From Micromonospora sp. NBC_01699 (GTDB lineage: Bacteria; Actinomycetota; Actinomycetes; Mycobacteriales; Micromonosporaceae): 64,000 nt of DNA. The notes under the pieces are model-generated. The model was not told the origin of the DNA and made no database searches. It saw only the letters and a list, made by a program, of their open reading frames with translations. A program made the position numbers and the translations under genes. Where the stretch lies: NCBI RefSeq assembly GCF_036250065.1, contig NZ_CP109199.1, positions 2,790,001-2,854,000 of the forward strand, in the 5' to 3' direction. Of this stretch, positions 2-9,168 are shown one piece after another; position 1 is the first letter of the stretch; the number at the start of each line of letters is the position of its first letter.

Positions 2-2116
2 CCTCAGGGCCCCCAGGGCGACGTGGGCGCTCAAGGCCCCCAGGGAATCCAGGGTGCCCAAGGCGTTCAGGGAGTTCAAGGCACCCAAGGCCCGCAGGGT
101 TCACAAGGTGTTCAGGGTTTCCAGGGTGATGTGGGTGCTCAAGGCTCCCAGGGCGTTCAAGGTGCTCAGGGTGTTCAGGGTCCTCAGGGAGTCCAGGGTG
201 TCCAGGGAGTTCAAGGCGCTCAGGGCGACACGGGCGCTCAAGGCTCGCAGGGTGTTCAGGGCTCCCAAGGCGCTCAGGGTTTCCAGGGTGATGTGGGTGC
301 TCAGGGCCCCCAAGGCATTCAGGGCTCCCAGGGCGATGTGGGTGCTCAGGGTCCTCAGGGTGTTCAGGGTCCTCAGGGAGTCCAGGGTGTCCAGGGAGTT
401 CAAGGCGCTCAGGGCGACACGGGCGCTCAAGGCTCGCAGGGTGTTCAGGGCTCCCAAGGCGTTCAGGGATTCCAGGGTGATGTGGGTGCCCAAGGCCCCC
501 AGGGTGTCCAGGGTGTTCAGGGCTCCCAGGGCGATGTCGGTGCTCAGGGTCCTCAGGGAGTCCAGGGTGTCCAAGGAGTTCAAGGCGCTCAGGGCGCTCA
601 AGGCCCCCAGGGGGTTCAGGGCGCTCAAGGGTTCCAGGGTGAGCAGGGCGACGTAGGCGTCCAAGGCCCCCAGGGCACGCAAGGCGTCCAAGGCGACGTG
701 GGTCCCCAGGGTGTTCAAGGTGCTCAAGGCTCACAGGGTGCTCAAGGCTTCCAGGGTGTTCAAGGCTTCCAGGGCGACGTGGGTCCTCAGGGCCCCCAGG
801 GTGTCCAAGGTGCTCAGGGCGATACGGGCGCTCAAGGCTCACAGGGTGCTCAAGGCCCACAGGGTGTTCAGGGCTTCCAGGGCGATGTGGGTGCTCAAGG
901 TCCCCAGGGTGTCCAAGGTGCTCAGGGCGATACGGGCGCTCAAGGCTCACAGGGTGCTCAAGGCCCACAGGGTGTTCAGGGCTTCCAGGGCGATGTGGGT
1001 GCTCAAGGTCCCCAGGGTGTTCAAGGTGTTCAGGGCACTCAGGGAATGCAGGGTGCCCAGGGGATTCAAGGTGCTCAGGGCGACGCGGGCGCTCAAGGCT
1101 CACAGGGCGCTCAAGGCTCACAGGGCGCTCAAGGCTCACAGGGCGCTCAAGGCTCACAGGGCGCTCAAGGCTCACAGGGCGCTCAAGGCTCACAGGGCGC
1201 TCAAGGCTCACAGGGCGCTCAAGGCTCACAGGGCGCTCAAGGCTCACAGGGCGCTCAAGGCTTCCAGGGCGACGTGGGTCCTCAGGGCCCCCAGGGTGTC
1301 CAAGGTGCTCAGGGCGATACGGGCGCTCAAGGCTCACAGGGTGCTCAAGGCTCACAGGGTGCTCAAGGCTCACAGGGTGCTCAAGGCCCACAGGGTGTTC
1401 AGGGCTTCCAGGGCGATGTGGGTGCTCAAGGTCCCCAGGGTGTTCAAGGTGTTCAGGGCACTCAGGGAATGCAGGGTGCCCAGGGGATTCAAGGTGCTCA
1501 AGGCGACATGGGCGCTCAAGGTGCTCAAGGCTTCCAGGGCGCTCAAGGCTTCCAGGGCGTCCAAGGTGTTCAAGGCTCACAAGGCGCTCAAGGCTTCCAG
1601 GGTGCTCAGGGTGACGTAGGTGCCCAAGGGGTTCAGGGTGCTCAAGGTTTCCAGGGCGCCCAGGGCGACACGGGTGCGCAAGGCACCCAGGGTGTCCAAG
1701 GCGCCCAGGGTGCGATGGGTTTGCAGGGCGTACAGGGACCGCAGGGGGACACGGGCGCGCAGGGATTGGCGGGCAATGGGATCGAGGCCGCGTACATTCA
1801 GGGTCCGCTGACCGTGATCGCGGACACCCCCGTCAATTTCGGGTGCCAGGCCGGAGACCTTGCTGTCGGAACCGGATATCAGCTCGCGAATGCGGGCGTC
1901 AACCCGGTGCTGATCCAGCCGCTCTCGGCCAGTGGCTACCAGTTCACCTTCACCGGTGGAGGTGCCGACATCTGGGTGTCCTGCATCTCACTCACCACGC
2001 CGGTGATGTTGAGAGCTCCGGCCAACACGTCGGGCCGGGCGACGGCCGACAGTAGCAAGTCCAGCCGGCCGAACGGTAAGCCGAAAAGCCCCGTTATCGT
2101 CGAGGAGGAAAAATGA
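2..2116 (+). CDS. Collagen-like Gly-X-Gln repeat protein, 5' end outside window
   Basis: The reading frame is open from base 2, in phase with the repeats, so the true start lies upstream; the GTG at 23 is an internal Val codon. About 590 residues are collagen-type Gly-X-Y triplets in which Y is nearly always Gln (GAQ, GVQ, GSQ, GPQ, GFQ), broken at intervals by GDV, GDT, GDA or GDM. Proline is confined to X positions. A non-repetitive tail of about 110 residues follows, with a compact hydrophobic part containing two Cys, then a charged Ser/Lys-rich end finishing VIVEEEK. Bacterial collagen-like proteins form trimeric surface stalks with a globular end domain; that role is inferred. No signal peptide can be judged. 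The TGA overlaps the next ATG (ATGA), so translation is coupled to the lipoprotein gene. Confidence 0.9.
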   Translation, partial: PQGPQGDVGAQGPQGIQGAQGVQGVQGTQGPQGSQGVQGFQGDVGAQGSQGVQGAQGVQGPQGVQGVQGVQGAQGDTGAQGSQGVQGSQGAQGFQGDVGAQGPQGIQGSQGDVGAQGPQGVQGPQGVQGVQGVQGAQGDTGAQGSQGVQGSQGVQGFQGDVGAQGPQGVQGVQGSQGDVGAQGPQGVQGVQGVQGAQGAQGPQGVQGAQGFQGEQGDVGVQGPQGTQGVQGDVGPQGVQGAQGSQGAQGFQGVQGFQGDVGPQGPQGVQGAQGDTGAQGSQGAQGPQGVQGFQGDVGAQGPQGVQGAQGDTGAQGSQGAQGPQGVQGFQGDVGAQGPQGVQGVQGTQGMQGAQGIQGAQGDAGAQGSQGAQGSQGAQGSQGAQGSQGAQGSQGAQGSQGAQGSQGAQGSQGAQGSQGAQGFQGDVGPQGPQGVQGAQGDTGAQGSQGAQGSQGAQGSQGAQGPQGVQGFQGDVGAQGPQGVQGVQGTQGMQGAQGIQGAQGDMGAQGAQGFQGAQGFQGVQGVQGSQGAQGFQGAQGDVGAQGVQGAQGFQGAQGDTGAQGTQGVQGAQGAMGLQGVQGPQGDTGAQGLAGNGIEAAYIQGPLTVIADTPVNFGCQAGDLAVGTGYQLANAGVNPVLIQPLSASGYQFTFTGGGADIWVSCISLTTPVMLRAPANTSGRATADSSKSSRPNGKPKSPVIVEEEK
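801..1016 (+). repeat. Perfect 108-bp tandem duplication in collagen gene
   Basis: Bases 801-908 and 909-1016 appear identical, each encoding 36 residues (12 triplets). This shows recent expansion by unequal recombination or slippage. Partial copies of the same block recur from about 1285, and a second block around 1008-1080 recurs near 1430-1500. Confidence 0.85.
1091..1252 (+). repeat. Nine perfect 18-bp tandem repeats in collagen gene
   Basis: The unit GCTCAAGGCTCACAGGGC occurs nine times without a mismatch and encodes the Ala-Gln-Gly-Ser-Gln-Gly cycle. Such an array can gain or lose units without leaving frame, so the length of this stalk segment is expected to vary between strains. Confidence 0.9.
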
Positions 2117-2745
2117 GTACGCGTCAGATCTTCGGGTCACTCGCCTGTGGTGCGGTCCTGCTGACCGGGGTCACGGCATGCAGCGAGGAGCCTGCTGACA
2201 AGCCGAAGACGAGCAGTTCGGGCAGCAGCAACAGCGACAAGGCGAATGGCGCCCCCAACACCGAAACCCCACCGGCGGAACTGCTGAATCTCGGTGTCGA
2301 GCAGGGGCAGGCCGGTGACTTCGACGCGGCGAAGGCGACCTTCGAGAAGGTGCTGGCCGCCGAGGCCAGCAACAAGTTCGCCTGGTTCAACCTGGGGTTC
2401 ATCGCCCATTCGCGCAACCAGTCCGACGAGGCGGTCAGCAACTATGACAAGGCGTTGGAGGCCGACGCCAACTACAAGCCGGCCCTCTACAACAAGGCCA
2501 TCGCCCTGGAGAGTAAGGCTCCGACGACGTCGATGGACATCTACCGCAGGGTCGTGTCGATCGATGACAAGTCGTCAACCGCCTACCTTCGCCTGGGCAT
2601 CCTGCTGTCCCAGTCCGGTGACGACAAGGGGGCGCGGGACGCTTTCAGGGCGGCGGTTCGGCTGGACAGCGGGCTCACCTCGGCGGTTCCGGCGAAGTAC
2701 CGCGCGGGCCTGACCACTCCGTCCTCCGCTCCTGCGGACAGGTGA
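2113..2745 (+). CDS. TPR-repeat lipoprotein
   Basis: A 210-aa protein with a lipoprotein signal: basic MSTRQ start, hydrophobic core and lipobox VTAC (Cys about residue 24), followed by a Ser/Lys/Asn-rich linker. Residues about 55-200 hold three to four tetratricopeptide repeats, recognisable from FAWFNLGFIAHSRN, YKPALYNKAIALE and TAYLRLGILLSQSGD. It should be anchored on the outer face of the membrane and act as a protein-binding scaffold. The ATG overlaps the stop of the collagen-like gene (ATGA) behind a strong GAGGAGGAA ribosome site, and its own TGA overlaps the GTG of the next gene. A role in export or assembly of the collagen-like protein is inferred from this coupling only. Confidence 0.85.
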   Translation: MSTRQIFGSLACGAVLLTGVTACSEEPADKPKTSSSGSSNSDKANGAPNTETPPAELLNLGVEQGQAGDFDAAKATFEKVLAAEASNKFAWFNLGFIAHSRNQSDEAVSNYDKALEADANYKPALYNKAIALESKAPTTSMDIYRRVVSIDDKSSTAYLRLGILLSQSGDDKGARDAFRAAVRLDSGLTSAVPAKYRAGLTTPSSAPADR

Positions 2746-4019
2746 TCGGTGCAATGCGTACGCCGCGTGTGACGGTTTTCACGGGGAGCAACCGTACCCG
2801 TTTCATCGACGAATGTTTCCGATCACTGGTCGCGCAGACCTTCACCGACTGGGAATGGGTGGTCATCCTGAACCAGGGGTCTCGTTGGCGGCCCGAGCGG
2901 CACGACGATCGGATCCGGCTCCTCGTCCAGGACAACCTGAACGGCGTTGGCGCCGTGAAGGGGTACGCCTGTGCCGAGGCGGCCGGGGACATCCTGGTGG
3001 AGCTTGACGACGACGATCTGCTCAGCAGCGACTGTCTGCAAGAAATTGTCGACGCCTTCGACGCCAATCCGGAGGTGGGGTTCGTCTACAGCGACACCGC
3101 GCAGATCCAGGAGGACGGCGGCCGCTGCGAAGACCGGTTCGCGAGTTCGTTCGGCTGGCGGCACTACGACGAGAGGGTGGACGGCCGCGAGGTGCTGGTC
3201 TGTCGGGCGTTGCCGCCGACGCCGCACAACGTGAGCTACATCTGGTACGCGCCGAACCATGTGCGGGCCTTCCGCCGGGACATCTACGAGAAGGTCGGCG
3301 GGTACGACGAGTCGCTCGACGTCGCGGACGACGCCGATCTCATGGCTCGGATCTACCAGGTGAGCGAGTTTCACCACATCCAGAAATGCCTGTACCTACA
3401 GCGCATCCACGGCAAGAACACGCAGCGCATTCCGGACGTCAACGCCCGCATCCAGCAGCGTACGGTGGAGATCTACGACCGGAACATCCAACAGAACGTG
3501 CTGACCTGGTCGCGGCGGCAGGGGCTCCTGGCACTCGACCTGGGTGCGGCCCACGGCAAGCCGGAGGGCTATCTCGGTCTGGACTACCACGACGGGTCGG
3601 GTGTGGACCTGGTCTGCGACATCACGAAGGGCGTCGACCTGCCGGACAACAGTGTCGGGGTCATTCGGGCGGTGGACTTCCTGGAACACATCCCGGACAA
3701 AATCTCACTGTTCAACGAGTTGTACCGACTGCTCGCCCCGAACGGGATGCTGTTGTCGCTGACCCCCAGCACCGACGGCCGGGGTGCCTATCAGGATCCG
3801 ACGCATGTGGCGTTCTACAACGAGAACTCGTTCTGGTACTTCACGGATGCCAACTACTCTCGGTTCGTACCCGAAATCAAATGCCGGTTCCAGGCGTCGC
3901 GGTTGGTCACGTACTTTCCGAGTGAATGGCACCAGACGCACAACATCCCGTACGTCTCCGCGAATCTCATCGCGATCAAGGACGACGCCCAACGCAACGG
4001 CGGCCTGCTGAACATCTGA
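2742..4019 (+). CDS. Fused GT2 glycosyltransferase and SAM-dependent methyltransferase
   Basis: A 425-aa protein. Residues about 8-230 are a GT-A family 2 glycosyltransferase: RVTVFTGSNR opening, the metal/nucleotide-sugar acidic run VELDDDDLL at 86-94, and the later acidic cluster DVADDADLMARIYQ. Residues about 262-415 resemble a type-11 class I methyltransferase: LALDLGAA glycine motif, LGLD acidic end of the second strand, DFLEHIPD and LLAPNGMLLSLTPS. The start is GTG 2742, overlapping the preceding stop (GTGA); ATG 2754 in the same frame is an alternative. Genetic coupling to the collagen-like protein makes that protein a plausible substrate, with Ser/Thr of GSQ and GDT triplets as possible acceptors; this is inference. 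It ends 2 bp from the convergent kinase-like gene. Confidence 0.85.
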   Translation: MIGAMRTPRVTVFTGSNRTRFIDECFRSLVAQTFTDWEWVVILNQGSRWRPERHDDRIRLLVQDNLNGVGAVKGYACAEAAGDILVELDDDDLLSSDCLQEIVDAFDANPEVGFVYSDTAQIQEDGGRCEDRFASSFGWRHYDERVDGREVLVCRALPPTPHNVSYIWYAPNHVRAFRRDIYEKVGGYDESLDVADDADLMARIYQVSEFHHIQKCLYLQRIHGKNTQRIPDVNARIQQRTVEIYDRNIQQNVLTWSRRQGLLALDLGAAHGKPEGYLGLDYHDGSGVDLVCDITKGVDLPDNSVGVIRAVDFLEHIPDKISLFNELYRLLAPNGMLLSLTPSTDGRGAYQDPTHVAFYNENSFWYFTDANYSRFVPEIKCRFQASRLVTYFPSEWHQTHNIPYVSANLIAIKDDAQRNGGLLNI

Positions 4020-4021
4020 CC

Positions 4022-4991
4022 TCACCCGGCGAGCAGTCGGGCGTGGGTCTCGTCGTCCGGCGCCGGTACGGTTGCCGACCGCCCGGCGACGGCCCGGCGG
4101 ATGGCGAGCCAGGCGGCACCGGCCGCCCCGTCCCCGGCCAGCACACCGGGTCGACCCAGCCAGGCAGCCAACCGTTGCTGGACACCGGCCCGGATCTCCG
4201 GCACCCCGGCCAGTACGCCACCGGCGAGCACCACCGGTCCGGGCGCCGGGTGCAGTGAGACCAGGGTGTCGGCCAGCCGGCGCGACGCGGTCTCCACGAT
4301 GTCCAGGGCCACCGGGTCGCCGGCCCGCGCGCACTCGGTGACCGCCGGTGCGATCGCCGCGACCCGGTCGCGGCCGAGTTCGTAGAACCGGGTCACGAAC
4401 GCGTCCGGCTCCCTCGCGCCGACCCGCCGGCAGACGGCCCGGACCAGTTCTCCCCGCTCGGCCTGTTTGTCCTGGTAGAGCGCTCGGGCGGTGGCCCTGG
4501 CGGCGGTCAGGCCGAGCCAGTAGCCGGAGCCCTCGTCGCCGAGCAGCCAGCCGAGGCCGTCGGCGATCCGGACCACGGCGCCCTCCCGGACGATCGCGGC
4601 TACCGCGCCGGTGCCGGCGATCAGCACCGTGCCGGTGTCGGCCGGGGTGCCGGCGGCGAACGCGACCACGGCGTCGCCGACCGGCCGCATCGGACAGCTC
4701 AGCCCGGCCCGGGACCACTGGTCGGCGTAGCCGGCGGCGACCTCGGGATCGTCCAGGCGCGACACGCCGGCCAGCCCGACCACGCCGCCGACGATCCGGT
4801 CCGGGTCGTGGCCGGTGAGCGCGGATCGGATCGCGGCGCCCAGCGCGGCGGCGGTGTCGGCCGGATCGGTGGTGATCGGGTTTCCGGCGCTGGCCCGACC
4901 CCGGCCCACTGTCCGGCCGTCCAGGGTGGCGAGGACCGCACGGGTCGCGGGTGCCACCGGCGTCGGCGCCGAGCACGAGGGGAGTGGTCAC
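4022..4991 (-). pseudogene. N-acetylglucosamine-kinase-like (BadF/BcrA ATPase) gene with one-base frameshift
   Basis: The body (311 codons from an internal GTG at 4957) is a BadF/BadG-type sugar kinase: AGNPITT near the N-terminus, VVGLAGVSR, LIAGTGAVAAI and LGDEGSGYWLG. It lacks the N-terminal phosphate-1 loop. That loop, VTTPLVLGADAGGT, is encoded immediately upstream from GTG 4991, but in another frame. Removing one base from the GGG at 4949-4951 (CCC in the coding sense) would restore DAGGTATRAVLATLDG, the expected kinase N-terminus. So either the gene is a recent pseudogene or the run of three is a sequencing error. The intact enzyme would phosphorylate GlcNAc or a related amino sugar after uptake, which fits the divergent transporter operon. 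Confidence 0.75.
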
Positions 4992-5045
4992 GTGCCGATG
5001 GTGCGGGCCGGCGGGCGTCCACCACAAGGGGATCGATCGAAAAAG

Positions 5046-5084
5046 TTAAACCTATTGACGTACGCGGCACAGTGGTCATAGTTT
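5046..5084 (+). promoter_or_regulatory. Probable promoter and operator of the amino-sugar operon
   Basis: TTGACG (5055-5060) and TAGTTT (5079-5084) are separated by 18 bp and lie about 35 bp before the regulator start. An imperfect inverted repeat, GTTAA-N5-TTGAC (5046-5060), overlaps the -35 box and could be the RpiR operator. AGTGGTC at 5071-5077 matches half of a DasR site, but the other half is missing. Confidence 0.5.
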
Positions 5085-5118
5085 TTCTCACCAACACGTA
5101 CCGGTGAAAGGAATGTTG

Positions 5119-6036
5119 ATGGAGGAGAGCGGACTGCTGGGCCGGGTGCGCACCGAGCTGAGCGCGCTGCCGGTCGCCCTACAGCGGGTCGCCGAGCAGA
5201 TCCTGATCGCCCCGGAGGAGGCCGCTCGGGCGACCATCATCGACCTGGCCGAGCGGGCCGGCACCTCCACCGCCACGGTCACCCGGTTCTGCCGGGTGTT
5301 CGGCTACCGTGGCTACGCCCAACTGCGGGTCGCCATCGCCACCGAGACCGGGCGGGCCGCCCAGGCCCGGTGGGACACCGACATCGACCGCGAGCTCGGT
5401 CCCGACGACCCCCTCGACCACCTGCTCGAAGTCGTCGCCAGTGCCGACGCGCGGGCCATCCAGGACACCGCCGGCCAGGTCGACCTCGCCGCCGTCGACC
5501 GGGTCGCGGCCGCCGTGGCGCAGGCCCAGCGGGTCGACCTGTTCGGCTTCGGCAGCTCCGGCAACGCCGCGCGGGAGATGGCCTTCCGGTTGGAACGCAT
5601 CCGGATTCCGGTCTGGCACCGCGCCGACGCGCACAGCGCGCTCACCAACGCCGCCCTGCTCGGCCCCGGTGACGTCGCGATCGGACTGTCGCACAGCGGG
5701 CGTACCCGCGAGGTGATCGAGGTGCTGTCCGAGGCCGCCGACCACGGCGCGCTCACCGTCGCGGTCACCTCGTTTCCCCGCTCGCCGCTGGCCGAGGTCG
5801 CCGACGTGGTCATGACGACCGCCGTACAGGAGACGACGTTCCGGCTGGCCGCGCTCTCGGCCCTGCATTCGCAACTGCTGGTGCTCGACCTGATCTACGT
5901 CGCGGTCGCGCAGCGGACGTACCAGCGGACCACCGAGGCGTTCGAGGTCACCGCACGGGCCGTCGATGCCCACCGGCTGCCGGACGAGTCGCAACGGGCG
6001 GCCCGTCGACGCGTCAAAACCACGGAGGGGTCATGA
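5119..6036 (+). CDS. MurR/RpiR-family transcriptional regulator with SIS domain
   Basis: The N-terminal HTH_6 domain (about residues 1-80) contains AERAGTSTATVTRFCRVFGY. The C-terminal SIS domain (about 110-260) contains LFGFGSSGNAA and IGLSHSGRTREVIEV, the phosphosugar-binding loops. Such proteins repress or activate sugar catabolic operons in response to a sugar phosphate. ATG 5119 is preferred because GAAAGGA lies 6 bp upstream; an in-frame GTG at 5104 lacks a ribosome site. It is the first gene of a five-gene operon, overlaps the next gene by ATGA, and is divergent from the GlcNAc-kinase-like gene. Confidence 0.88.
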   Translation: MEESGLLGRVRTELSALPVALQRVAEQILIAPEEAARATIIDLAERAGTSTATVTRFCRVFGYRGYAQLRVAIATETGRAAQARWDTDIDRELGPDDPLDHLLEVVASADARAIQDTAGQVDLAAVDRVAAAVAQAQRVDLFGFGSSGNAAREMAFRLERIRIPVWHRADAHSALTNAALLGPGDVAIGLSHSGRTREVIEVLSEAADHGALTVAVTSFPRSPLAEVADVVMTTAVQETTFRLAALSALHSQLLVLDLIYVAVAQRTYQRTTEAFEVTARAVDAHRLPDESQRAARRRVKTTEGS

Positions 6037-6794
6037 CCACCACCACCATCAGCGCACCGGCCTACGTCGACGTCGTCACCGCGGCGATCGGCCGGGTCAC
6101 CCGGACCCAGGCCGGCGGCGTACGGGCCGCAGCCGACCTGATCACCACGGCCCTCGACCAGGGCGGGGTGGTGCAGGCGTTCGGCTGCGGGCACTCCGAG
6201 GCACTGTCCATGGAGATCGCCGGGCGGGCCGGGGGACTGGTGCCCACCAACAGGATCGCGCTGCGGGACCTCGTCCTCTACGGCGGCGCCGACCGGGCCG
6301 TACTCGACGATCCGTACCTCGAACGAAACCCGGCGGTGGCCCACCGGCTGTACGAGCTGGCCCCGGTCAAGCCCGACGACGTCTTCGTGCTCACCTCCAA
6401 CTCCGGCGTCAACGGCGTCATCGTCGAGTTCGCCCTGCTGGTCAAGGACCATGGCCACCGGCTGATCGGGATCACCTCGCTCGACCACACCGCGCGGGTC
6501 GAGTCGAGGCACCCGTCGGGACGGCGACTGGCCGACATCGCCGACGTCGTACTCGACAACGGCGCGCCGTACGGCGATGCCGCCCTGCCCCTCCCCGGCG
6601 GCGGTGCCGTCGGGGCCATCTCGTCGATCACCGGAGCGCTGCTCGCCCAGCAGATAGTCACCGAGGTCGTCGCGCGCCTGCTCGACGCCGGCCAGACCCC
6701 GCCGATCTACCTGTCGGCGAACGTGCCCGGTGGCGACGCCCACAACAACGAACTAGAGGCGCGGTACGCCGGGCGTATCCGACGCACCGCCTAA
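6033..6794 (+). CDS. SIS-domain phosphosugar-binding protein (UPF0309-like)
   Basis: A 253-aa cytoplasmic protein with the SIS fold: VVQAFGCGHSEALSMEIAGR early and VFVLTSNSGVNGVIVEFAL in the second half. The length and sequence fit the UPF0309 group of sugar isomerases/phosphosugar-binding proteins often found with GlcNAc-type transporters. It overlaps the regulator by 4 bp (ATGA). It probably acts on the phosphorylated amino sugar delivered by the transporter and kinase; isomerase, deaminase or etherase activity cannot be chosen from the sequence. Confidence 0.82.
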   Translation: MTTTTISAPAYVDVVTAAIGRVTRTQAGGVRAAADLITTALDQGGVVQAFGCGHSEALSMEIAGRAGGLVPTNRIALRDLVLYGGADRAVLDDPYLERNPAVAHRLYELAPVKPDDVFVLTSNSGVNGVIVEFALLVKDHGHRLIGITSLDHTARVESRHPSGRRLADIADVVLDNGAPYGDAALPLPGGGAVGAISSITGALLAQQIVTEVVARLLDAGQTPPIYLSANVPGGDAHNNELEARYAGRIRRTA

Positions 6795-6814
6795 CAGAAG
6801 GCGAGGCCGCCGAC

Positions 6815-8233
6815 ATGGACCCCTCTTCCACCCCGGTCGTACGCCGTCCCAACCGACGCACCCTGCTCCGGGCCGCCACCATCGGGCTGGCCGCCCCGGT
6901 CCTGACCGGCTGCGTGACCGGTGCCGGTGACGAGAGCTCCACCAGCGCCAGGAGCGAGACCAGCGCCGACAACCCGCTCGGCGTACCCGAAAAGGCCCCG
7001 CTCGAAGTGGTCGTTTTCAAGGGCGGGTACGGCGACGACTACGCGATCAACGCCGAGAAGCTCTACGAGCAGCGGTACCCCAGTGCGACGGTCGACCACA
7101 AGGGCATCCAGAAGGTCGGCGAGGCGTTGCAGCCCCGGTTCGTCGCCGACACCCCGCCGGACGTGGTCGACAACACCGGCGCCGGCCGGCTCGACCTCGC
7201 CACCCTGGTCGCCGCGAAGAAGCTCACCGACCTGACCGAGCTGCTGGACGCGCCGTCGCTGCACGACCCGACCCGCAAGGTACGCGACACCCTGCTGCCG
7301 GGGGTGGTCGAGGATGGCACCCTCGACGGGAAGGTGTACTCGCTGAACTTCACCTACACCGCCTGGGGGCTGTGGTACTCCAAGCCGCAGTTCGACCGGC
7401 ACGGCTGGACCTACCCGAGCACCTGGGACGGCATGCTCGCGCTCTGCGCCGAGATCAAGAAGGCCGGCATCGCGCCCTGGACGTACCAGGGTAAGTATCC
7501 CGAGTATCTGAACGATCCGCTGCTCACGATGGCGGCCAAGGCGGGCGGACCGGACCTGGTCAAGGCCGTCGACAACCTCCAGCCCGGCGCGTGGAAGCAG
7601 CAGCCCCTGCTCGACGCGGCCACCGCCGTCGCCGAACTCGCCGGCCGGGGCTACCTGCTGTCCGGGTCCGAGGCGCTGTCGCACACCGAGGCACAGGCCG
7701 CCTGGTCGCAGGGGAAGGCGGCGATCATTCCGTGCGGGTCGTGGCTGGAGGCCGAGCAGAAGGGCGTCACCCCGGACGGCTTCGACATGGTGATGGCCGC
7801 CGTACCGACGCTCGGCGCCGGTGACAGGCTGCCGTACGGTGCCCTGCTGGCGGCCAGCAGCGAGTCGTTCCTGGTGCCGGCGAAGGCGAAGAACCCGCGC
7901 GGCGGGCTGGAGTTCCTCCGGATCCTGTTCTCCCAGCCGGCCGCCCGCAGGTTCGCCGAACTCAACAGCACCCTGCCCAGCGTTGCCGGGGCCACCGACG
8001 GCCTGACCGTCAGTAGTGGACTCGGCTCGGTCCGCGCCGCCGTCGCGGCCGCCGGGGCGAACACCTTCACCTACCGGTTCCGCACCTGGTATGCCCCGCT
8101 GGCCAAGGCCGTCGACGACGCCACCGGCGAACTCGCCACCCGCCGGGTCACCCCGGCCCAGTGGGCCGACCGGATCCAGCGGGCCGCCGACGCGCTGGCC
8201 AGGGACACCACCGTCGCCAAGTACACCCGGTAG
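6815..8233 (+). CDS. Sugar ABC transporter substrate-binding lipoprotein (NgcE-like, Tat)
   Basis: A 472-aa extracellular solute-binding protein. The N-terminus has a twin-arginine motif (NRRTLLRAATIGLAAPVL) leading into lipobox LTGC, so it is probably exported folded and lipidated. The rest reads as a family 1 sugar-binding protein with aromatic patches (YTAWGLWYSKPQFDRHGW, WTYQGKYPEYL). Overall similarity is to GlcNAc/chitobiose-binding proteins of actinomycetes. ATG 6815 is chosen because the signal follows directly; the frame stays open upstream but there reads as the wrong frame of the SIS gene. It is followed by two permease genes. Confidence 0.88.
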   Translation: MDPSSTPVVRRPNRRTLLRAATIGLAAPVLTGCVTGAGDESSTSARSETSADNPLGVPEKAPLEVVVFKGGYGDDYAINAEKLYEQRYPSATVDHKGIQKVGEALQPRFVADTPPDVVDNTGAGRLDLATLVAAKKLTDLTELLDAPSLHDPTRKVRDTLLPGVVEDGTLDGKVYSLNFTYTAWGLWYSKPQFDRHGWTYPSTWDGMLALCAEIKKAGIAPWTYQGKYPEYLNDPLLTMAAKAGGPDLVKAVDNLQPGAWKQQPLLDAATAVAELAGRGYLLSGSEALSHTEAQAAWSQGKAAIIPCGSWLEAEQKGVTPDGFDMVMAAVPTLGAGDRLPYGALLAASSESFLVPAKAKNPRGGLEFLRILFSQPAARRFAELNSTLPSVAGATDGLTVSSGLGSVRAAVAAAGANTFTYRFRTWYAPLAKAVDDATGELATRRVTPAQWADRIQRAADALARDTTVAKYTR

Positions 8234-8241
8234 GGCGGGTC

Positions 8242-9168
8242 ATGGCAGCCATGCGGCACGGCAAATACCGGTTCCTGGCCGGCGCGATCCTGCCCGGGCT
8301 GCTGTTGTACGCGGTGTTCGTGCTCTCCCCGTACGCGCAGGCGTTCTATCTGTCCCTGACCGACTGGACCGGGGTGTCGGGCGAGGTCGGCTTCGTCGGG
8401 CTGGACAACTTCCGGCGGCTGCTCGACGACCGGCTGTTCCTGTCGGCACTGCGCAACAACGGGCTGATGCTGCTGGTCGTACCGTTGGCCACCATCCTGC
8501 TCGGTCTGCTGCTCGCCGCGTTGGTCAACTTCGGCGGTCGGCGCGGCAGCACGGGACTGGCCGGGATCCGGGGCGGCGAGTTCTACAAGATCGCGTACTT
8601 CTTCCCGCAGTTGCTCTCGCTGCCGATCGTCGCCGTGCTCTGGCAGTTCGTCTACCACCCCAACGAGGGACTGCTCAACGGCTTCCTGCGTGCCGTCGGC
8701 CTGGACGCGCTGGCCCACGCCTGGCTCGGTGACCCCGCGTTGGCGCTCTCGGCGGTGATGGCGGTGCTGGTCTGGTCGTCGGTCGGCTTCTACATGGTGC
8801 TGTTCTCGGCCGCGATGGAGTCGATCCCGCGCGACGTGCTGGAGGCGGCCGTGCTCGACGGCGCCGGCCGGCTCGCCACCCTGCGCCGGATCATCGTGCC
8901 GCTGCTCTGGGACAACGTCCAGGTCGCGTTCGTCTACCTGGGCGTACTGGCCCTGGACGGGTTCGCGGTGGTGCAGGTGATGACCGCCGGTCCGGGCGGA
9001 CCGGACGGTGCCACCGAGGTGATCGGGCTCGGCCTTTACCGCAGTGCCTTCACGTACGGCAAGTTCGGTTACGCCGCCGCCATGGGCGTGACCCTGTTCT
9101 TCCTGACCCTCGCGTTCGCCGTGATCGCGCTGCGGGCCAGCCGACGGGAACGGGTGGAACTGTCATGA
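8242..9168 (+). CDS. Sugar ABC transporter permease 1 (MsmF/NgcF type)
   Basis: A 308-aa inner-membrane protein with about six transmembrane segments, starting near FLAGAILPGLLLYAVFVLSPY. The ATPase-contact EAA loop is visible as EAAVLDGAGRLATLRRIIVPLL. ATG 8242 follows the binding-protein stop by 8 bp; ATG 8251 is an alternative. Its stop overlaps the next permease (ATGA). No ATP-binding gene is present, as is usual for actinomycete sugar transporters that share an MsiK-type ATPase. Confidence 0.9.
   Translation: MAAMRHGKYRFLAGAILPGLLLYAVFVLSPYAQAFYLSLTDWTGVSGEVGFVGLDNFRRLLDDRLFLSALRNNGLMLLVVPLATILLGLLLAALVNFGGRRGSTGLAGIRGGEFYKIAYFFPQLLSLPIVAVLWQFVYHPNEGLLNGFLRAVGLDALAHAWLGDPALALSAVMAVLVWSSVGFYMVLFSAAMESIPRDVLEAAVLDGAGRLATLRRIIVPLLWDNVQVAFVYLGVLALDGFAVVQVMTAGPGGPDGATEVIGLGLYRSAFTYGKFGYAAAMGVTLFFLTLAFAVIALRASRRERVELS

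Follow-up and report, generated by a model that had tools for sequence, protein, structure and literature searches.

The glycan of BclA-type collagens sits on Thr of Gly-X-Thr triplets. Passages of two reports describe BclA as carrying rhamnose and a methylated sugar (PMC6947953, PMC10050317), and parts of a third give Thr as the favoured residue at the Y position of the Gly-X-Y triplets of Gram-positive collagens (48.3%) and mention a bifunctional collagen lysyl hydroxylase-glycosyltransferase from Mimivirus (PMC8968730). Here we analysed a stretch of 64,000 nucleotides from Micromonospora sp. NBC_01699 (G000:C1:2790001-2854000 of its own genome), referred to as the window, at the left edge of which three genes encode a collagen-like protein, a tetratricopeptide repeat (TPR) lipoprotein and a fusion of a GT2 glycosyltransferase (GT) with a methyltransferase (MT). 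Comparison of bacterial and viral loci shows that, at the level of sequence, this enzyme family is associated with collagens having Gln at Y. What is new and striking is that one enzyme family is paired with Gly-X-Gln collagens in both bacteria and viruses, and no description of a fusion enzyme-collagen pair was found in the searched part of the open-licence PMC literature.

Linkage of the fusion enzyme to Gly-X-Gln collagens

Genome contigs were scanned for relatives of the fusion, and the best 80 of 166 (59–95% identity) were kept; with the window's own locus and two congeners they make 83 loci, which are not independent, since some are closely related and one contig contributes two of them (L009 and L067). 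The hosts of the kept relatives are Micromonospora, Plantactinospora, Streptomyces, Kitasatospora, Frankia, Saccharothrix, Acidimicrobiia, Solirubrobacterales and other actinobacterial metagenome-assembled genomes. A collagen gene was detected near the fusion gene in 79 of the 83 loci, as a Gly-X-Y open reading frame (ORF) in 78, of which 30 were truncated by the end of the stretch, often a contig end, and as a short collagen gene between rmlB and rmlC in L042. Among the collagen-free loci, L032 and L058 end 1,071 and 104 bases downstream of the fusion gene, respectively, and L062 begins 439 bases upstream of it. The link between enzyme and collagen, which the initial annotation had proposed, is thus strongly supported by sequence comparison, and the contrary case it had named, in which homologues would as a rule lie apart from collagen genes, was not borne out.

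The collagen-TPR-fusion order, which the same annotation had suggested looking for in other genomes, was found in Micromonospora, on one strand and with the collagen gene upstream; it is different in most Streptomyces loci, where a convergent collagen gene lies downstream and faces the fusion gene, and the linkage is kept. With gene order so reshuffled between genera, synteny alone does not account for the linkage.

In an even sample of 250 Micromonosporaceae genomes, the fusion was found in 21 (E ≤ 1e-60), with a collagen gene adjoining in 21 of 21. A phylum sample of 396 genomes gave six (E ≤ 1e-30), two of which are apparently the genomes of L062 and L078; collagen lies beside the fusion in five of them and the sixth (G536) ends ~440 bases upstream. 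One of those five, G620, is distant and split, having a GT-half relative (33%) by a Thr-rich collagen and an MT-half relative on another contig. Among 150 genomes of the order, one had the fusion at E ≤ 1e-60, namely the window's own. In L177, a Thr-rich collagen-like ORF of 1470 aa (3010-7419) was observed beside a 33%-identical GT gene (1820-3079, minus strand) with no MT half, and this genome has an MT-half relative on another contig. Two thresholds of PF01391 were tried and rejected as tests for collagen: at E ≤ 1e-20 none of the 150 order genomes matched and even the window's own genome was missed, this threshold being too strict, and the 1e-7 threshold, with matches in 129 of the 250 family genomes, was not used as a presence test because many of the matches were GC-rich frame artefacts or Pro-type collagens.

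Counted on the largest Gly-X-Y ORF per locus, truncated ones included, Gln ranked first at Y in 75 of the 78 linked collagens (its median share being 0.67), with Thr often ranking second and Lys rare. Unlinked collagens of Micromonosporaceae, in contrast, had a median Gln share at Y of 0.02 and a maximum of 0.43, with Pro in many of them and mixtures of Thr, Lys and Gln in others. This control has 47 rows, including the duplicate pairs L124/L165, L130/L163 and L137/L164 and several short or frame-artefact tracts, and L143, L161 and L162 yielded no row. The difference between linked (80 rows) and unlinked collagens had a Mann-Whitney p of 2e-19, which ignores relatedness, and the selection by PF01391 favours Pro. 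The same contrast was seen within genomes: nine unlinked loci (L116, L117, L118, L119, L121, L139, L141, L142 and L144), lying over 1.5 Mb from the fusion or on a different contig, have a Pro-rich tract, and the linked tract of the same genome is Gln-rich.

Apart from these counts, a Pro-rich collagen-like gene with Gly-Ser-Pro/Gly-Ala-Pro repeats, not linked to the fusion, was noted in L116-L119, L121, L123, L127, L133, L138, L141 and L144. Collagens with mixed Thr, Lys and Gln were noted in Micromonosporaceae genomes with no fusion match (L147, L149-L152, L154-L157, L160 and L163-L165).

The family reaches beyond actinomycetes, being abundant in viruses and having a GT-only relative between collagen genes on a Bacillota plasmid. 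Scans of IMG/VR for the enzyme gave 28 relatives and then the best 80 of 308, making 108 loci, at identities of 30–58% to the query (68% in one short piece). Of the 108, 28 had a Gly-X-Y ORF with 10 triplets or more in the stretch examined (18 groups after joining near-duplicates), with Gln as top Y residue in 27 and a poly-Gly artefact in one. Viral contigs were also gathered by collagen type, giving 77 Gly-X-Gln loci, 80 with mixed Lys, Gln and Thr and 80 Thr-rich ones, the last with a generic peptide query, as a query derived from L177 gave no usable loci. Within local stretches, the GT half was detected in 14/77 Gly-X-Gln loci (both halves in 9/77), 0/80 mixed and 0/80 Thr-rich loci. Whole records were searched for the 50 longest of each group, and the rest within local stretches; the enzyme or its GT half was present in 32 of 50 Gly-X-Gln records (both halves in 21, one of these assembled from the ends of two contigs), in 0 of 50 mixed-Y records and in 1 of 50 Thr-rich records, this one (L472) having the highest Gln share (0.35) among its 80. 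The zero of the mixed-Y group is an empty search answer, to which the Gly-X-Gln records under the same search are the positive counterpart. Fisher's test gave p values of 2.5e-13 (32/50 versus 0/50) and 6.6e-8 (21/50 versus 0/50). With near-duplicates grouped, the counts were 24/38 Gly-X-Gln (17 with both halves), 0/44 mixed and 1/48 Thr-rich, and the p values 3e-11 (24/38 versus 0/44), 1.8e-7 (both halves) and 1.5e-10 (versus Thr-rich), with deeper relatedness uncorrected.

Twelve phage records had a match, two of them being records of one phage, Synechococcus phage S-CRM01. Its SCRM01_090 is a full-length homologue (38% over 97%), annotated as methyltransferase / glycosyl transferase with no substrate given, and in the two collagen tail fibres of the phage 82 of 135 and 40 of 60 triplets have Gln at Y. 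The relative in phage LR756501 (30%, GT half) is accompanied by Ser-rich collagens in the stretch read.

The plasmid search matched 14 records, none of which covered 80% of the query, and the best GT-half relatives were from Peribacillus (36%) and Priestia (34%). The Peribacillus gene is flanked by collagen genes with Gln at Y in 147/199 and 256/286 triplets, with a BclB-related gene near, and three further collagen ORFs on the plasmid have Gln at Y in 94/108, 26/28 and 13/14. In case of Priestia, only a 12-triplet collagen remnant lies nearby and another collagen on the plasmid is not Gln-rich. The Peribacillus plasmid (NZ_CP133765.1; L183 and L189) encodes several glycosyltransferases and carries pseudaminic-acid genes besides its Gly-X-Gln collagen ORFs, of which there are at least five, and so apparently bears a locus for spore-surface glycoproteins.

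The 110 viral enzymes fell into 36 clusters at 70%. In a midpoint-rooted tree, 82 bacterial enzymes lie inside a clade of 89 that is nested among viral enzymes, with at least five changes between virus and bacterium by parsimony and some weak deep nodes (0.31, 0.34). Since the bacterial enzymes nest within viral diversity in this tree, phages may have been the source from which bacteria acquired the stalk module.

The three-gene unit, its enzyme and its neighbours

The window holds the C-terminal 704 aa of the collagen-like protein (2..2116, plus strand; PF01391, E 2.6e-97), as the ORF is open at the left edge; the full gene encodes ~811 aa and starts ~320 bases further left (G000:C1 near 2789681). 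Its ATG start (L006:5681) is followed by a signal-peptide-like segment, identified by eye, which together with the PF01391 match marks an exported collagen-like protein. Gln is at Y in 84% of the 207 Gly-X-Y triplets of the full ORF and Thr in 3%. A C-terminal non-collagen domain with a basic tail and two Cys (1781..2113, plus strand) follows, and an alignment of 74 linked C-termini had the pattern C..GD.A.G.G in its consensus.

The next gene (2113..2745, plus strand) encodes a 210 aa TPR lipoprotein with several Pfam TPR models and a lipobox (VTAC, residues 20-23), both features of a surface TPR lipoprotein; in the Streptomyces members an N-terminal hydrophobic segment, judged by eye, takes the place of the lipobox. 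The 425 aa fusion follows (2742..4019, plus strand). The three genes and 4-bp stop-start overlaps described in the initial annotation were all recovered, the overlaps being ATGA between collagen (2-2116) and TPR (2113-2745) and GTGA between TPR and fusion (2742-4019), and Pfam agreed with its gene identities (Collagen; several TPR models; Glycos_transf_2 with Methyltransf_11/23). The second overlap requires the GTG start, since an in-frame ATG at 2754 is another possible start of the fusion; it is beyond chance, however, as the same overlap is possible in 38 of the 55 loci in which a TPR gene immediately precedes the fusion. The collagen-TPR overlap was present in 12 of 35 testable loci, 9 of those 12 being from Micromonosporaceae. 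We infer from these overlaps that the three genes would be translationally coupled.

The first half of the fusion (GT-A/GT2; about residues 8-230, 2763..3431, plus strand) carries E-x-D-x-DD and V-x-DD-x-D(L/I)M motifs, found in 83/83 and 78/83 fusions, respectively, and Glycos_transf_2 at residues 17-117 (PF00535, 46.1 bits against a cut-off of 23.3). The second half (about residues 258-415; 3513..3986, plus strand) has Methyltransf_11/23 matches inside residues 258-346, both above cut-off; by strict pattern, the S-adenosylmethionine (SAM) motif D-(L/V/I)-G-x-(A/G)-(H/N) was found in 67/83 fusions, and (F/V/H)(L/M)EH in 71/83. Conservation is spread over both halves, with 154 of 425 positions at least 97% identical over the 83 loci. 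The AlphaFold model had a mean predicted local distance difference test (pLDDT) score of 87.5 and was poor at residues 1-4 and 346-357; the structure alignment comprised 40 sequences, L022 excluded. The best Foldseek matches in PDB were GT-A enzymes, namely chondroitin polymerase (E 1e-14), a Leptospira glycosyltransferase, WrtF and SpsA, with SpsA also matched in its form bound to deoxythymidine diphosphate (dTDP) and RmlT at rank 45. By PF00535, the GT-A fold and the DxD-type motif, the enzyme is a GT2/GT-A glycosyltransferase, and its second half is predicted to be a class I SAM-dependent methyltransferase from Methyltransf_11/23 and the SAM first-strand motif. As no export signal is visible in its sequence, the fusion is probably cytoplasmic. 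In three Micromonospora loci (L022:10001-11260, L105 and L094), one stop was noted inside the matched fusion stretch.

Neighbouring families were defined by clustering genes called over the 83 loci with a simple gene caller of our own. The TPR family is present in 58 loci, in 55 of them immediately upstream on the same strand. RmlA was found in 20 loci, RmlC in 19, RmlD in 17 and RmlB in 17; at least one rml gene was detected in 23 loci (22 Streptomyces and one Micromonospora lupini), at least two in 20 and all four in 14. The collagen gene lies between rmlB and rmlC in 13 of these 23, as it does in L042. In L031, NCBIfam models placed rmlA, B and D above their cut-offs and RmlC, with 153.5 bits, just below its own (155.75). 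Because 12 of the 23 share flanking families (none of these in L031, L034, L040 and L073, among others), they do not represent 23 independent events. The rml genes near Streptomyces collagen genes suggest rhamnose there. Further recurrent neighbours were several conserved flanking genes and, in 10 loci, a GT2 followed by TPR-like repeats recognised by eye (e.g. L048:5818-6933 and L024:3011-4096), a family weakly SunS-like at 42 bits against a cut-off of 350.

Beyond the unit, window positions 4022-9168 hold a gene resembling N-acetylglucosamine kinase on the minus strand, followed by genes for an RpiR-type regulator, a SIS-type protein and what look like sugar transporters; they probably form a cluster for the uptake of amino sugars with no relation to the collagen module. 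These genes were considered as part of the unit and rejected, because the next gene is on the opposite strand and the kind is not among the recurrent neighbour families examined.

Proposed function and competing readings

We consider it probable that the fusion is a dedicated modifier of Gly-X-Gln collagens that would add an O-methylated sugar to them before they are exported; the TPR protein would be their anchor at the surface. The three genes would be co-transcribed and would jointly make and decorate a secreted collagen-like stalk. The fusion would recognise the Gly-X-Gln triple helix, Gln being either the carrier of the sugar or only the mark of the substrate, and would glycosylate the collagen in the cytoplasm, ahead of export; its MT half would O-methylate, and so cap, the sugar, and the TPR protein would hold or assemble the stalk at the cell surface. 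For the rml-linked loci of Streptomyces, dTDP-L-rhamnose is the probable sugar donor. The simplest interpretation is that the enzyme recognises Gln-type triple helices.

Several observations weigh against this proposal. The Frankia locus L041 has no collagen over 10 kb upstream and 7.8 kb downstream, 25 of the 83 loci have no TPR family member, and no rml gene was found in the stretch examined around the window's own locus. The collagen of L078, whose fusion is 60% identical, has Thr at 60% of its Y positions, and the Gln share is low in L024, L046, L049 and G389. The S-CRM01 enzyme gene lies ~50 kb from the collagens, and 80 of the 108 viral fusion loci have no collagen ORF in the stretch examined. 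Furthermore, the window's own collagen served as the query by which the Gly-X-Gln viral set was collected, and 18 of the 50 records searched whole from this set, which are fragments, had no match; the records of this set are also longer (median 68 kb versus 38 kb for mixed and 37 kb for Thr-rich). Among records of at least 40 kb, however, the enzyme is in 30/44 Gly-X-Gln versus 0/23 mixed.

The strongest rival, which we regard as a realistic though not the favoured possibility, is a BclA-like O-glycosylation of Ser/Thr, within the triplets or else in the linker or C-terminal domain, with Gln as an inherited residue that only stabilises the triple helix. BclA itself is a precedent, as far as passages of PMC6947953 and PMC10050317 describe it, the frequent second rank of Thr at Y fits, and distant relatives (G620, LR756501) accompany Thr- or Ser-rich collagens, as does the enzyme of L078 its Thr-rich one. 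However, five complete linked tracts contain neither Ser nor Thr (L033, 46 triplets; L056, 13; L059, 42; L071, 44; L073, 29), three of them (L033, L059 and L073) with rml genes nearby, and in one of the two collagen ORFs of L178 118 of 118 triplets are Gly-X-Gln, with one Thr. The enzyme was, moreover, in just one of the 50 viral records with Thr-rich collagens, and the Thr-rich Micromonosporaceae collagens examined are from genomes with no fusion match. Since those five tracts hold no Ser/Thr, O-glycosylation inside triplets is not a general rule, and the GSQ/GDT residues that the initial annotation had put forward as attachment sites fail as such a rule. The C-terminal domain after the tract contains Ser and Thr in all five, which counts for the Ser/Thr reading, and sugar sites in flanking domains are possible.

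A bold candidate, which we put forward tentatively and hold to be rather doubtful, is that Gln itself is the acceptor, with an O-methylated sugar on the side-chain amide of Gln at Y replacing hydroxyproline or glycosylated Thr, in phage tail fibres and bacterial stalks alike. In the part of the open-licence PMC literature searched, only a chemical synthesis turned up for Gln glycosylation, and none of the matches listed had Gly-X-Gln terms.

A cell-surface polysaccharide or glycolipid is an unlikely target of the enzyme; the collagen would then be a mere bystander in a locus for surface structures. Among solved structures, the GT folds nearest to that of the fusion belong to polysaccharide and teichoic-acid enzymes, the weak NCBIfam matches of the fusion are mostly polysaccharide enzymes, and rml genes also serve polysaccharides; yet the linkage tracks the collagen and its Y residue, the recurrent neighbours with a plausible role are TPR, rml and the GT2-TPR family, and viruses carry the same enzyme-collagen pair. 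Methylation of the side-chain amide of Gln by the MT half, rather than of a sugar, would fit the fact that no side chain is more constant in linked collagens. It is very improbable, however, as PrmC, which methylates Gln of the GGQ motif in release factors, and such amide methyltransferases have the hallmark (N/D)PP(Y/F/W), found in the second half of 0/83 fusions, and the methyltransferase here is fused to a glycosyltransferase.

Comparison with known systems

Should the fusion indeed modify Gly-X-Gln collagens as proposed, microbial collagens may be decorated more often than has been assumed and at an unexpected site, and they would gain a dedicated modifying enzyme, predictable from Gln at Y, across bacteria and phages. 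This would bear on how prokaryotic collagens with no hydroxyproline are stabilised and protected, and could offer an enzyme source for decorating recombinant bacterial collagens. It would bear as well on the targets of phage-encoded glycosyltransferases, for which a report on freshwater actinophages offers, in the passages available, phage DNA protection or host cell-wall modification (PMC10202952).

Bacillus subtilis SpsA, a GT2 enzyme with solved dTDP complexes, and Listeria RmlT share the GT-A fold with the fusion, a match of 12–19% identity over the aligned part that covers the GT half only. The S-CRM01 collagens are phage tail fibres, whereas a bacterial stalk is proposed here, and the S-CRM01 genes are non-adjacent. 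Compared by description only, the Mimivirus enzyme is likewise one bifunctional enzyme for a collagen, in that case a viral one; it unites a hydroxylase with a GT and acts, by its title, on Lys, whereas here a GT is united with a methyltransferase and few Lys residues occur in the linked tracts.

The stalk would resemble BclA and the related collagen glycoproteins of the Bacillus exosporium in being a sugar-decorated surface collagen, and the Peribacillus plasmid, with its GT relative (36% over the GT half) between collagen genes, adds to this likeness. The comparison with BclA made in the initial annotation is strengthened by the rml genes of the 22 Streptomyces loci; towards the rhamnose and methylated sugar of BclA, rml genes lie near these and one Micromonospora locus, not near the window's, and an MT half is present in the fusion. 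Unlike in BclA, GT and MT are fused in one enzyme here and there is a TPR anchor, with no exosporium known, and against the Thr of BclA-type triplets stand the 3% Thr at Y of the window's collagen and the five linked tracts with no Ser/Thr. Where Gram-positive collagens favour Thr at Y, the collagens linked to this enzyme mostly have Gln instead.

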